Shown here: piece after piece, positions 28,838 through 43,118 of the stretch
Numbering within the stretch: position 1 is the stretch's first letter
Layout of the letters: the number at the start of each line of letters is the position of its first letter
Source: Trichocoleus desertorum ATA4-8-CV12
GTDB lineage: Bacteria; Cyanobacteriota; Cyanobacteriia; FACHB-46
Assembly: GCA_019358975.1 (NCBI GenBank)
Contig: JAHHIL010000006.1
Location: forward strand, 1-64,000
Reading direction: 5' to 3'
Length of the DNA stretch: 64,000 nt
Program-made: the position numbers and the translations under genes
The notes under the pieces: generated by a model
Told to the model about the DNA's origin: nothing
The model's database searches: none
The model's input: the letters and a program-made list of their open reading frames with translations, nothing else

Positions 28838-29506
28838 TTAAAATACCTCTCGCGTCTCGCCCCCCTCCAATGCTGGGTCCCGATCGTGTCCGGCTGCTTT
28901 CATTCCACGCTGATAGCCAGCACGCTGACTAACTCTTTCCAACCACGCTCGAATGCTGGGGCGGTTGCTGAGCCCCACGTTGTAGAACGCCTTCATAGTG
29001 CCAAAGGGGAAGTGCATCATGATGTCAGCTGCTGTGAACTCATCACCCGCAAAGTAGGGTACTTGGGATAGGCGAGTTTCGACCCATTGCAGGTGGCGAT
29101 CGCGCCGTTCTTGGAGCATGGGTAACAGTGGAGAGCCACTATCTGCACCCGCAGCCATTGTCGCGATCCAGTGCAGGCTCATCTGATTCATGAGACTGGC
29201 ATTGGCATAGTGGAACCAGTAAAGATAGTCAGGGTATTGAGGCGCTGTGACAGGTACTGTGAGCCGTCCATCTCCGTAGCGAGTCAACACATACTCAAGG
29301 ATGGCTCCAGACTCAGCCAGCACAACTTCACCATCACAAAGCACAGGCGCACTACCGATCGGATGAAGCGATCGCAGTTCTTCTGGCGCGAATTGGGTAG
29401 ACGGATCGCGCTGGTATACCTTTAGTTCGTACGGTAGTTCTAGTTCTTCGAGCAGCCAGATAACCCGCTCAGACTGGGAAACGTTGAGATGGTGAACGGT
29501 GAGCAT
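28838..29506 (-). CDS. Glutathione S-transferase family protein
   Basis: A 222-residue cytosolic protein with the N-terminal thioredoxin-like domain (LTVHHLNVSQSERVIWLLEE, with the catalytic serine region, and IGSAPVLCDGEVVLAESGAI with the cis-proline and ES glutathione contact). The C-terminal helical domain contains FAGDEFTAADIMMHFPF (N-capping box). It is most like the bacterial/fungal GST group active on electrophiles; the substrate is not evident. It stands alone, with 200 bp of gene-free sequence on its 3' side. Confidence 0.88.
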   Translation of the reverse strand: MLTVHHLNVSQSERVIWLLEELELPYELKVYQRDPSTQFAPEELRSLHPIGSAPVLCDGEVVLAESGAILEYVLTRYGDGRLTVPVTAPQYPDYLYWFHYANASLMNQMSLHWIATMAAGADSGSPLLPMLQERRDRHLQWVETRLSQVPYFAGDEFTAADIMMHFPFGTMKAFYNVGLSNRPSIRAWLERVSQRAGYQRGMKAAGHDRDPALEGGETREVF

Positions 29507-29556
29507 GTACCCTCAAATGACGAATTTGCACAATTTCGCCTTGAGTATAGCAACGC

Positions 29557-30546
29557 TCACGCTGCTTTAGATTGCACTACCTGCGCATTCAAGATCTGTT
29601 TTGCTTTGTTGAGCTTCAAAACTACCTCGTAGTTATCAGGATGTAGCTCATTAACAAACTGAATTAGATGATCAACTGTGCAGGGTTTTTGAAAGCCACC
29701 ATTCCAAATGTGAAATTCTTGGTGAACTACCTCTGCTAGAGTAATCAAGTTGTCTTGGCAAGCGGCGAGATGAGGATAGTATTCTTTTGAATAGATGTGA
29801 TGTACAACAAAATTACATCTGTTGTATTTGTCTCGCTTTTGATTAGTAATTTGACAGCGGCTACCGTCCCGTCTCTTGGCAGCATTCATTGCTGAATCAA
29901 TTCTCTTTTGTTGTGCTGTTTCCTCATCAATGATCATCTTAAAGGTTTTCTTGCCTACAACCTCAATGGCCCCGCACCAACTACGGCGATTTTTGACAGT
30001 TAACTCTTTGGCAAGATTCTCCGATAATCTATAGAAGCCTGCAAGAGAATAGTGCCGAACACCATCTATGTCATCAAAATCTGTATGAAGTTCAAGTGGA
30101 GAATCCGATCTTTGAATATCATCAAAGGCTTTATTTAAACGGGCAGGGCTAGTACAAAGAATATTGACAACATCTTTTTTTGAAAGAAAGTGTCTATTGT
30201 TTCTGAGTGTTAGTGAGCTAGAGTTTTCTTGAATCTTTTTGCTGATGAAAGAATTGCGAATTTTTTCTTTATGTTTGGTGATAAATTCTTTAATGCGTGA
30301 CCAAATACTCTTTTTCTCTTTCTCATCCATGTATTTGGCGATCGCATAGGCTCCTTGCTCAGAAAAGAGCCTTTCATTCAAACTCTTATTAATGTAAATG
30401 AAGTGCTCACTTTCTCGTAGCTCCCACTGGTCATTTGGATCGGAGTTAAAGAACTGTACGATTTGATCTAATTCTTTACGGGTGATTTCCAAAGCCTCTG
30501 AGAGCTGCTCTTCCCGGATCGTGAAGCCCGAATTTTTCTTTGCCAT
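29557..30546 (-). CDS. HNH nuclease of a two-gene cassette
   Basis: A 329-residue basic protein. The C-terminal third carries an HNH-type site: RRDGSRCQITNQ, then FVVHHIYSKEYYPHLAACQDNLITLAEVVHQEFH, with the metal-binding/catalytic His-His pair, the central Asn, and the last His. There are no CxxC zinc knuckles. The N-terminal two thirds (TIREEQLSEALEITRKELDQ, and a second block around residues 118-180) look like DNA-binding helical domains, including an LSKKDVVNILCTSPARLNKA segment. It begins 2 bp after the stop of the J-domain gene, so the two are cotranscribed. Base composition is AT-rich, with only one GCGATCGC site (near 30340). Homing, restriction or defence activity is possible; I do not recognise a named system. 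Confidence 0.75.
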   Translation of the reverse strand: MAKKNSGFTIREEQLSEALEITRKELDQIVQFFNSDPNDQWELRESEHFIYINKSLNERLFSEQGAYAIAKYMDEKEKKSIWSRIKEFITKHKEKIRNSFISKKIQENSSSLTLRNNRHFLSKKDVVNILCTSPARLNKAFDDIQRSDSPLELHTDFDDIDGVRHYSLAGFYRLSENLAKELTVKNRRSWCGAIEVVGKKTFKMIIDEETAQQKRIDSAMNAAKRRDGSRCQITNQKRDKYNRCNFVVHHIYSKEYYPHLAACQDNLITLAEVVHQEFHIWNGGFQKPCTVDHLIQFVNELHPDNYEVVLKLNKAKQILNAQVVQSKAA

Positions 30547-30548
30547 GA

Positions 30549-31175
30549 CTATGCCTCTGCGCTGATGCTCTTGTACATAATGGTGAGGCGGTTAAAGATA
30601 GCAGCGTCACCTGTTTTCGAATTGTCGGGATGGTAGATTTTGCTTAGTTGGTGGTAGGCATTCTGAATGTCTTTATGGGTTGCAGTTTTAGGATCTAGAG
30701 CAAAAACCTGCCAAGGCTTGAAGTAATTAAAGACATTAATGCCATTGATGCAGCCATATCCCTGCTGATTTTCTTCGCCTGGAAGAATGCCAATAAACTT
30801 GCGATATAGCTTTTCCCATCCATCTTTTGCGCCTAGATTAAGATTGTCCATGCCATCTGTTGCCATTCTGAAAGCACCAGATTTTTTAAGTTCTGTAGTA
30901 TCTTTAACTGAAAAATGTTGATAGATTGCTGCTTTGAGTTGGGCTAGCGTAAGTGGCTTGACTTTTGTACGTTCGGTAACTGGTTCTTGTTTCTGATGAT
31001 TTGCAATGACGAAACAAGTAAATTCTTCTAATGCAGTTGTACTTACACCATGTATTTCTGCAAGGCGAGAAATTTCATTTCTTAGATATGTGTTTAGCTG
31101 AGCCGACGGCTGTCCTGATTGAGCCTTAGATGATTTCTTCCTAGTTGATTTGGCTTTCGTATTAGTTTTGGGCAT
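30549..31175 (-). CDS. J-domain protein paired with an HNH nuclease
   Basis: A 208-residue protein. A very basic, disordered N-terminus (KTNTKAKSTRKKSSKAQ) is followed by a helical segment (to residue 60), a central domain with QLKAAIYQHFSVKDTTELKK and WEKLYRKFIGILPGEENQQG, and a C-terminal J domain (about 163-206) with the HPD motif in QLSKIYHPDNSKTGD. J domains recruit and stimulate Hsp70/DnaK. Here the domain is C-terminal and there is no G/F or zinc region, so this is a specialised class C J protein that would bring DnaK to a particular client, perhaps the HNH partner. Its promoter should lie in the AT-rich gap at 31176-31353. Confidence 0.75.
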   Translation of the reverse strand: MPKTNTKAKSTRKKSSKAQSGQPSAQLNTYLRNEISRLAEIHGVSTTALEEFTCFVIANHQKQEPVTERTKVKPLTLAQLKAAIYQHFSVKDTTELKKSGAFRMATDGMDNLNLGAKDGWEKLYRKFIGILPGEENQQGYGCINGINVFNYFKPWQVFALDPKTATHKDIQNAYHQLSKIYHPDNSKTGDAAIFNRLTIMYKSISAEA

Positions 31176-31353
31176 AGCTTTTTGAATTATGGAGCGTCAG
31201 TGATTCCTCTTTGCTCTCAAGCAATTCTTGCTTAAATAAAGTCTGGAATCCGGAATTTTACTAACTCTTTAAAGTCAATATTTAATGTTCTTGGTACTTG
31301 GTTAGCATTCCCATGAGGTCTGAAATAATATTCAAACAGCCAAATTTAAAGTA

Positions 31354-32115
31354 ATGAGATTTCTGGGGATTGATTTGGGGTGGCGATCGCAACCTAGCGG
31401 ACTCTGCTGCCTCGAATGGCGAGACGGCAAACTACATTTACAGAATTTGGAGCGATTAGAAGCGATCGCTGACGTTTTGGCCTGGGTAGATCACTGGGTT
31501 CCGGCTGAAGCATCGGCCATAATTGCGGTAGATGCACCAACCTTAATCCCCAACAAAACGGGGATGCGACTGCCCGATCGCCTGACTCACAAGCATTTTG
31601 GCCGCTATCACGCAGGCTGTTACCCCGCCAACTTGGGTTTACCATTTGCTGAACGGACGGTAGCTTTTGGTCTGAGCTTGGAGGCGAAAGGGTTTGATCA
31701 TGCGCCAGTACTAACAGCGCAACAACCAGGACGCTACCAAATCGAGGTGTTTCCCCATCCAGCGATGATCTACCTGTTTGGCTTGTCGAAAATTTTGAAA
31801 TACAAAAAAGGCAAGCTGAGCGATCGCCGACTGGAACTGCTGAAGCTACGTCAGCACATTCTGCAAGACTTGCCTACCTTGGAACCAAGCTTATCTCTAC
31901 TAAACCCAACCACAATTCCAGAAATCCCCAGTAAAGGCACAGAGATGAAAGCCGTTGAAGATCAACTGGATGCCTTAATTTGCGCCTATGTTGCTGCGCA
32001 TTGGTGGTACTGGGGACTAGAACGCAACTTAGTTTTGGGCGATCGCGAAACAGGCTATATCGTGGTTCCTACGCTTCTGCCCAAAGAATCAACCCTGGCT
32101 CGTAAGGACTGCTGA
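31354..32115 (+). CDS. DUF429 family protein (RNase H-like fold)
   Basis: A 253-residue protein beginning FLGIDLGW, the first strand and aspartate of an RNase H-like fold. Other conserved blocks are IIAVDAPTLIPN, RLPDRLTHKHFGRYHAGCYPAN, and YQIEVFPHPAMIYLFGL. Near the C-terminus come EDQLDALICAYVAAHWW and GYIVVP. DUF429 proteins are predicted nucleases with no proven function. The 3' end overlaps the 3' end of the converging glucan phosphorylase gene by 47 bp. Confidence 0.85.
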   Translation: MRFLGIDLGWRSQPSGLCCLEWRDGKLHLQNLERLEAIADVLAWVDHWVPAEASAIIAVDAPTLIPNKTGMRLPDRLTHKHFGRYHAGCYPANLGLPFAERTVAFGLSLEAKGFDHAPVLTAQQPGRYQIEVFPHPAMIYLFGLSKILKYKKGKLSDRRLELLKLRQHILQDLPTLEPSLSLLNPTTIPEIPSKGTEMKAVEDQLDALICAYVAAHWWYWGLERNLVLGDRETGYIVVPTLLPKESTLARKDC

Positions 32116-41135: not shown

Positions 41136-43118
41136 TTAAAGTCCAAAGATTCCAGCGATTTGAGGCAATACGTGTTTGCAGAGTTGCACGATCGCGCTGG
41201 GTTCGGCGAGTTCGGTTAGCATCCCCTTGAGCCACCGGATCGCTGATTTCGCTCCATTTTTCTTCTCAGGTTCTGCGGGATCTTTTCCTGCCTCGGCTAA
41301 GGCTTGCACTTGCTTGAGCGCTTCGGCTTTGTCTTCTGGCTTGAGTTCTTCAGCACTGGCGATCGCTCGGTGCAGTTGTTCTAGCAGTTCTTTGATGCCA
41401 GGTTCATCAGGTTGTAGGGAGGCGGGTAGCTGATTAATGGTATTGGTGACGTTACCGCTAATTTCACCGAGGTTCACAACACCGCTGACATCACCCCCCA
41501 CTAAACTGTTGATGTCGCCAATATTGCCACCAGCGTTAATATTGACTCCGCTATTTTCTGGCATGACATCTCCTCGATGATGATAGTTTTCTGTATAAAA
41601 TTTAGGCTGTTTGAGAGCTGTTTCTACCATGTTTTCTAAGCTGCGAATGCGATCGTCCTTCTCAGCAAGCAGCAGTTGTAAGTGATTTGCAGGTAGAGCT
41701 TTGAGTTGATTGTAGTCTTCAAAATAAGCTTGGCTGAGTTCAGACTTGTCTATCCCTTGGGCAGTTTTAGCCCGCAGCAAAAATTTATCTTTGCCTCGCT
41801 TCTCCATTGCGACAATTTCTAGCTCGGCTGCTGGGTTGTCTTCTGCCAAGTTTTTGAAAGCGATCGCGATCGCTCGTGGATCAACTCCATGATTGTGATA
41901 CAAATCCAGTGTGTCAGTTAAGGGTTTAATGAAATCCTCAAAATCACCCTCTGCAAAAACTTCATTTCTATTATCTGGCTTTCTTAATGGATCTGGATTC
42001 TCCCTCGTCGGTAGTCGCATATAGACATATTCACACTTAACTTCAGAAAACTTGGTTGTCGTTTTAATACCCCAATCTTGAATGAAGGCTCCGGTTAAAT
42101 GGGCACCTGTTAAGTCAGCTTGATCTAGTCTCGTTCGAATAAGGTTTGCCCTGCTAAGATCAGCTCCTCGTAAATTAGCTTGACTTAAATCTGAGTCCAT
42201 AAAAATGGAACTAGTTAAGTCGGCTTTCTCCAGATTAATATCTCTTGTCTTTTTAGTGTCATAAAATATTTGATTAGCGCCTTGTTTTGTTATCAACAAC
42301 CGATATAAATAAAAATCTTCTAAGTACGTGTCCTTGATCCATGCATCTTTGACAGTCCAAGCTTGAAACCAGCAAGTACGAACTAAATTGGATTTCCTGA
42401 AGTCAACATATGTTAGTGATGCCCTTGTAAAGTCAGCATCAGTTAAATCGGAATTTCGAAAAATTGTTCTTTTACCATCAAACAATACATTCCTAGAGGA
42501 TATAGGATATGCGAAAACAAGACCTACAAAAGCCGCAAGACACAGCCCCGGAAAGAGCCCTAGAATCATCCACAAGAATAATGCATAAGTAACTTTTGAG
42601 CTTTCTGATAAGAAGAAAATTGCCCAAGTAATAAAAGTGCATATAAAAAATGTTTTTGCTAAAAGCTTTGACTTCATTCGGGACATTCGAGATGAGCCAA
42701 ATAGCTCCATTGAAATTTGAGTTTTGTCCGCAAATTCTCCAATGAATTGTCCAGCCATTATGCTTGTGAAGCAGAAGACAAAAATTACTAATTCAAGAAT
42801 AGGAAATTTTACGTCTACTCGTAATGGGTTGTCTGAAGCCATTGTGACTTCGGACCAGTGAACTAAATCAGCAGATGAAAAAAGGTTGACAGAAACAACA
42901 GAAGTTCCCAGCCCTAAAACAGACAAGGTAATTGAAACTATAAATAAACATGCGCTCCAACTTGGAAGTAAACCTGCTTTGACCCCCGTAAAATTTGCCC
43001 CTTGCAAAATGGCACTAGTGAAGTTTGCTCCTCGAATGTCGGCGTAGCTGAAGTTGGCTCCGGTGAGGTCTTGGCCTTTGAAACTGCGGCCTCGGAGGTT
43101 TTGTCCGGAGAAGTCCAT
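41136..43118 (-). CDS. Membrane pentapeptide-repeat protein with C-terminal helical module
   Basis: A 660-residue chimera. Pentapeptide repeats (A(D/N)LXX) occur at residues 1-45 and again at about 220-355 (DLTDADFTRASLTYVDFRKS, LSQANLRGADLSRANLIRTR). Between them are four membrane helices (about 53-80, 105-125, 150-170 and 180-205). A soluble domain follows (LDLYHNHGVDPRAIAIAFKN), then a coiled coil, a Gly/Asn-rich stretch (NINAGGNIGDINSLVGGDVS ... LGEISGNVTNTINQL), and a C-terminal helical module (KELLEQLHRAIASAEELK ... LPQIAGIFGL). The last two blocks recur at the ends of many multidomain cyanobacterial proteins. The gene's middle is AT-rich and lacks GCGATCGC sites, unlike its 3' third. 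Function unknown; a signalling or membrane-attack role is only a guess. Confidence 0.8.
   Translation of the reverse strand: MDFSGQNLRGRSFKGQDLTGANFSYADIRGANFTSAILQGANFTGVKAGLLPSWSACLFIVSITLSVLGLGTSVVSVNLFSSADLVHWSEVTMASDNPLRVDVKFPILELVIFVFCFTSIMAGQFIGEFADKTQISMELFGSSRMSRMKSKLLAKTFFICTFITWAIFFLSESSKVTYALFLWMILGLFPGLCLAAFVGLVFAYPISSRNVLFDGKRTIFRNSDLTDADFTRASLTYVDFRKSNLVRTCWFQAWTVKDAWIKDTYLEDFYLYRLLITKQGANQIFYDTKKTRDINLEKADLTSSIFMDSDLSQANLRGADLSRANLIRTRLDQADLTGAHLTGAFIQDWGIKTTTKFSEVKCEYVYMRLPTRENPDPLRKPDNRNEVFAEGDFEDFIKPLTDTLDLYHNHGVDPRAIAIAFKNLAEDNPAAELEIVAMEKRGKDKFLLRAKTAQGIDKSELSQAYFEDYNQLKALPANHLQLLLAEKDDRIRSLENMVETALKQPKFYTENYHHRGDVMPENSGVNINAGGNIGDINSLVGGDVSGVVNLGEISGNVTNTINQLPASLQPDEPGIKELLEQLHRAIASAEELKPEDKAEALKQVQALAEAGKDPAEPEKKNGAKSAIRWLKGMLTELAEPSAIVQLCKHVLPQIAGIFGL

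Follow-up and report, generated by a model that had tools for sequence, protein, structure and literature searches.

The nearest known mechanism to the one considered here is that of bNACHT25, a nuclease-type defence protein that senses phage through host DnaJ/DnaK and needs both DnaJ and its DnaK contact; its authors suggest that further antiphage systems, not yet characterised, may likewise guard host chaperones (PMC12169576). In gene arrangement, cbpA-cbpM of Escherichia coli comes closest; CbpM blocks the side of the J domain that binds DnaK (PMC4063869). Pairs of a J gene and a downstream winged-helix partner recur, and the cyanobacterial genome G177 carries a DnaJ-type gene and directly after it a CbpM-type gene (L186:1486-2700), as in cbpA-cbpM. 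Among viruses, phage RB43 commandeers DnaK through its J protein Rki (PMC3486835). HNH-type effectors are known from Septu, type IA retrons and CBASS (Cap5). Toxin-antitoxin-chaperone (TAC) modules include a SecB-like chaperone as a third gene.

Here we describe a cyanobacterial cassette of two genes, encoding a J-domain protein and an HNH protein, which shares features with each of these systems. Like bNACHT25, it would tie J-protein/DnaK machinery to a putatively DNA-degrading effector; however, bNACHT25 combines housekeeping DnaJ with a NACHT protein, whereas the cassette brings its own J protein and an HNH protein that has no NACHT domain. With toxin-antitoxin (TA) and TAC modules it has in common a small mobile operon, a toxic-enzyme-like second gene, a chaperone component and perhaps a tolerance of orphan restraint genes, but TAC modules comprise three genes and the cassette two, one for a J protein and one for a putatively toxic HNH nuclease. 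CbpA-CbpM likewise pairs a J gene with a downstream winged-helix partner of weakly similar fold, although CbpM lacks a nuclease domain and the HNH protein has one in addition to a duplicated repeat. The HNH effectors of Septu and type IA retrons (9n6b) and CBASS Cap5 resemble the HNH fold of the cassette and are its best, weak matches in PDB, with E-values that are not significant; the cassette has no ATPase, retron or cyclic-nucleotide partner and no PADLOC match. Rki and the J proteins encoded in cyanophage head regions share with the cassette a J domain containing HPD, and the head-region proteins share the whole ~130-residue module of the cassette J protein. In contrast, these phage J proteins have no HNH neighbour of the cassette family, and Rki is an unrelated early protein.

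The cassette lies in Trichocoleus desertorum ATA4-8-CV12, whose 6.06-Mb genome is of cyanobacterial type; the window (the whole stretch of 64,000 nucleotides analysed) belongs to contig G000:C6. Both predicted open reading frames are present on the minus strand and are separated by 2 bp. The cassette and its surroundings comprise the following features.

29556..31342, no strand: whole cassette, about 1,787 bp, from alignment of flank DNA; ~41 bp stand in its place in G387, of the same genus
30549..31175, minus: gene 1 (P0001), J-domain protein of 208 aa; ORF and Pfam DnaJ, E=2e-6
30564..30695, minus: J domain, residues 161-204; Pfam PF00226, and a model that matches solved J-domain folds with probability ~1.0
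30624..30632, minus: HPD motif, residues 182-184, with no variation across the family; alignment A2
30696..30947, minus: conserved module preceding the J domain, residues ~77-160; alignment A2, viral scan and module tree
29557..30546, minus: gene 2 (P0002), HNH protein of 329 aa; ORF and PHROG HNH families
30325..30525, minus: winged-helix-like repeat N1, residues 8-74; hhalign repeat homology (E=4e-8) and predicted secondary structure
30007..30195, minus: winged-helix-like repeat N2, residues 118-180; hhalign (E=4e-8), predicted secondary structure and a weak Bro-N match in a homologue
29674..29856, minus: HNH nuclease domain, residues ~231-291 (C..T...HH...N...H..FH); invariant columns and PHROG 119/144
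31176..31342, minus: AT-rich upstream region within the cassette, presumed promoter; empty-site comparison
28838..29506, minus: left flank, outside the system, glutathione S-transferase gene; Pfam GST_N (2e-14), conserved in G386 and G387
31354..32115, plus: right flank, outside the system, DUF429 gene; Pfam DUF429 (5e-29), conserved in G386 and G387

The original prediction of an AT-rich cassette of 1.6 kb was right in composition and too short in extent: no other 1.8-kb stretch of the window has so low a GC content (0.39 versus 0.50), and the empty site places its limits at about 29556-31342. Its single HIP1 site (GCGATCGC) was also counted correctly but is no oddity on its own, as 6.6% of stretches of this size are as poor (mean, 3.6 per stretch); the HIP1 core CGATCG, present once versus 5.6, is the rarer deficit (0.6% of stretches). 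Scans of the cassette for a promoter and terminator scored at shuffle level, and the consensus scan gave no convincing promoter. A second AT-rich stretch of the window (41136-43118; GC about 0.40-0.42) encodes a 660-aa pentapeptide-repeat membrane protein adjoining a clpP-like gene and a 150-aa protein.

Matches to the HNH family, remnants included, were detected in 33 of 386 cyanobacterial genomes and 21 of 143 genera, a patchy distribution. Together with five genome-collection loci and one locus from a genome of the same genus, this search yielded 37 full-length copies. In every one of them (37/37), the HNH gene is immediately preceded by the J gene on the same strand, mostly at a spacing of 2 bp; a gap of 289 bp in L061 is a start-codon artefact, as the HNH profile match starts much nearer the J gene. 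The 37 pairs span more than 20 genera and occupy different sites, and this adjacency indicates that the pairing is more than chance. Homologues of the two genes thus co-occur as neighbours, as had been anticipated, and the contrary outcome, homologues usually found apart, did not appear. The distances of the two proteins are correlated (r=0.77; none of 2,000 permutations as high), giving congruent trees, and vertical descent could account for part of this correlation. But the unit has moved between lineages as well: the window pair groups with that of strain FACHB-502, the pair of G386, from the same genus, comes from another clade, and two genomes (G280 and G185) each carry two distant copies. 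A single-sequence scan of 84,980 species, a method that reaches close relatives only, returned cyanobacterial matches only. Among close cassettes, dN/dS is 0.19-0.27 for the J gene and 0.21-0.37 for the HNH gene, showing that both proteins are under purifying selection.

The cassette is mobile and accessory, and it consists of two genes and no more. Besides the empty site of G387, the same position in G386 holds a cytochrome P450 gene and an FHA-like gene (L205:3586-5864, contig C30), and this alternative insert marks the site as an insertion hot spot. Genomes of genus g29 share a block of ~1.75 kb, 93-99% identical, that contains nothing but the two genes and some 125 bp of upstream sequence; three genomes carry it at one site and two others at different sites, and a decayed piece of it remains at the first site in a sixth (G237). 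These cases bear out the expectation that the pair lies in variable sites. Neighbouring genes differ between genera, and the GC content of the cassette is usually below that of the host. Its ends share no direct or inverted repeat of 7 bases or more and carry no transposon ends, and the insertions are intergenic and at unrelated sites, with no homing, intron or intein context found. In one genome, the mobile block is preceded, at a distance of 9 bp, by a ~143-bp repeat that contains a strong 15-bp hairpin (L049:8882-9024); dozens of copies of this repeat occur in g29 genomes. Pairing and mobility of the two-gene unit are well established, and the cassette, as toxin-antitoxin systems do, forms a two-gene mobile operon with a congruent history.

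In the J protein, the intact HPD motif and the C-terminal position of the J domain agree with the original prediction, and HPD is invariant across 22 aligned family members. The basic tail said to precede the J domain is a different matter, since the basic N-terminus is not conserved in the family. A variable N-terminal region is instead followed by a conserved module that continues into the J domain (consensus, W..LYR..I..LP.E....G..CINGINIF.YF.PW.VFGLDP), so that the conserved part is a C-terminal module of ~130 residues. Mean identity within the family is 38% for the J protein versus 31% for the HNH protein, making the former the better conserved partner.

The HNH protein matches PHROG 'HNH endonuclease' families over residues ~209-291 (best E 6e-7); the window protein has no Pfam match above the cut-off, and several homologues match Pfam HNH_2. 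Residues H249, H250, N266 and H279 are invariant, with H275 and F278 nearly so. The only invariant cysteines are C231 and C289, which leaves no four-cysteine zinc knuckle; the proposed His-His...Asn...His site without zinc knuckles is thus recovered. So are the two DNA-binding-like regions placed at the N-terminus: N1 and N2 are homologous to each other and, in a low-confidence model, both follow a strand-helix-helix-strand-strand-helix pattern. The predicted order is two repeats, a long helix and the HNH domain. The repeats resemble MerR-type winged helices in PDB and, among viral proteins, phage antirepressor/Bro-N regulators; a Pfam Bro-N match in one homologue is weak (E=0.002). Homology of the repeats to CbpM (PF13591) was considered on the basis of a fold match, gene order and an FTI...EL..IV similarity and was rejected; profile comparison with 12 CbpM sequences gave probabilities of 14% (N1) and 0.1% (N2), and CbpM therefore serves as no more than an analogy. 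The structure models have low confidence (pLDDT 63-64) and structural matches of the HNH protein are leads only, including the weak fold matches to the type IA retron nuclease and CBASS Cap5 (E 0.26 or worse). A sequence search of solved structures with the HNH profile gave chance matches only.

Losses of the cassette are unequal between the two genes. The J gene is intact in G022, where the HNH reading frame breaks off after 18 codons, and in G121, where no trace of the HNH gene is left; in G157, the J gene is truncated before the J domain. HNH pieces without a J gene are decayed remnants only (G237 and G221), and three refuse-like cassette remnants were seen among cyanobacterial genomes. In the cyanobacterial genomes searched, no intact HNH gene of the family was seen without its J gene, versus two intact orphan J genes. 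This is the pattern expected if the J protein restrains a toxic HNH protein, although an asymmetry resting on two orphan J genes is not statistically strong. A second architecture is found in G080, where a 222-aa J-domain protein is followed 10 bp on by a 348-aa HNH protein (L172:8359-10084). Its HNH domain is related to that of the main family (hhalign E=6e-13) and its N-terminal parts are unrelated; the association of J and HNH proteins is therefore broader than one subfamily, with no further pair of the G080 type in a 146-genome sample. The G080 pair lies downstream of a large gene resembling chelatase subunit H.

A location in defence islands, raised as a point to check, finds no clear support. 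Scans of neighbouring genes with PADLOC and Pfam (145 near versus 128 far) gave few defence-type matches in either set and no clear enrichment: cytosine-methylase families numbered three near versus one far, and PIN-domain genes three near. Because most neighbours are housekeeping genes, apart from some methylase, PIN and integrase genes, and defence-type genes are in only mild excess, defence islands are not the rule. The pair does appear to be undescribed, as predicted: in PADLOC-DB 2023, the J protein has no match and the HNH protein only two chance-level Cmr5 matches, outside the HNH domain, and literature searches found no paper describing the pair. A role of the cassette in defence is plausible.

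The same J module is carried by uncultured cyanophages, in 36 viral contigs (L072-L107) detected by a viral scan with the J alignment. In most of them the encoding gene lies beside portal and minor-head genes and its product, of 325-932 aa, has the module at its C-terminus or centre; in L077 the module is joined to an LPD1 domain in a polyvalent-type protein. Judged by neighbouring genes, the nearest cultured relatives of two of these contigs are Synechococcus phages S-CBS4 and S-H1, and in the module tree, viral modules interleave with picocyanobacterial J proteins. None of the 36 contigs has an HNH gene beside the module. In a T7-like contig, a 381-aa protein with an N-terminal J domain is encoded right after the J-module protein (L072:8711-9856). 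Plasmids and cultured phages searched for the J module yielded generic DnaJ only, and 50,697 phage and 72,556 plasmid records held no match to the HNH family, nor did the viral contigs scanned; an HNH gene in a phage or homing-intron module lacking the J gene, an outcome that would have spoken against the system, therefore did not appear. Viral J modules may serve virion assembly without any link to the cassette; alternatively, they may act in DnaK takeover or as decoys against the cassette.

A chaperone-gated nuclease, as first proposed, is compatible with the anatomy of the two proteins. This anatomy, the loss pattern and the bNACHT25 and Rki precedents together lead us to a model in which the nuclease is held by its own J protein with the DnaK of the host and serves in defence or in a toxin-antitoxin-like way, to which we assign a probability of about 0.5. 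We infer each of its elements, namely DNA cleavage, J-HNH binding, DnaK dependence, the direction of restraint, the trigger and the defence role. The cassette would be a stand-alone, horizontally moving nuclease module with the HNH protein as effector: its winged-helix-like repeats would bind DNA or a partner and its C-terminal HNH domain would cut DNA. The J protein would be a dedicated partner, its conserved module binding the HNH protein and its HPD motif bringing host DnaK to it. In a healthy cell the nuclease would be kept in check, either folded and held or cleared. Infection could upset this restraint, either through phage proteins that burden the DnaK system or through competition by phage-borne J modules, and the freed nuclease would then attack DNA, probably in an abortive or toxin-antitoxin kind of defence. 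An extended version, in which a dedicated J co-chaperone and DnaK gate the nuclease, virion-associated J modules of cyanophages act as hijackers or decoys, and the cassette represents a new class of immunity or killing module, is unlikely.

The main rival to restraint is activation by the J protein, which with DnaK would activate or deliver the HNH protein only once it had recognised a misfolded protein or an assembly of the phage. The pairing evidence applies equally here, bNACHT25 needs DnaJ for activation (PMC12169576), the J protein is the better conserved partner, and an orphan J gene could persist through a second use. An inactive HNH protein should, however, survive loss of the J gene, yet intact HNH genes without one were never seen, in numbers that are small; we hold activation possible, if rather doubtful. 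HNH domains are common in homing enzymes, and the cassette might instead be a selfish or genome-maintenance element, moved by a homing-type or recombination nuclease that the J protein helps to fold. Its movement as two genes alone and the likeness of the N-terminal repeats to phage antirepressor/Bro-N folds would fit, but the loci share no common target gene, intron or intein, insertions are intergenic, at unrelated sites and without end repeats, and no homing-type HNH copy without J is seen, which makes such an element improbable.

It is still harder to credit a regulator pair of HspR/CbpM type, in which the winged-helix repeats would bind the J domain and DNA to control transcription and the HNH domain would be secondary. 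The order of J gene then CbpM is the same in E. coli and in G177, CbpM obstructs DnaK binding at the J domain (PMC4063869), and the HNH model has a weak fold match to CbpM in complex with the CbpA J domain (3ucs_A; rank 43, E=1.9). Against this stand the low profile probabilities given above and the invariance of the catalytic HNH residues, which indicates that nuclease activity is under selection. That the two genes are chance or housekeeping neighbours of unrelated function has virtually no likelihood, being refuted by 37/37 adjacency, congruent trees and movement as one block.

If the proposed model holds, the cassette would be a nuclease switch under the control of a private Hsp70 co-chaperone, and it would belong to a photosynthetic phylum in which defence genes have been little explored. 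The pair offers a concrete, small (1.8 kb) and testable candidate for the idea that antiphage systems guard chaperones, and the presence of the same J module beside cyanophage head genes makes a host-virus conflict over DnaK testable.
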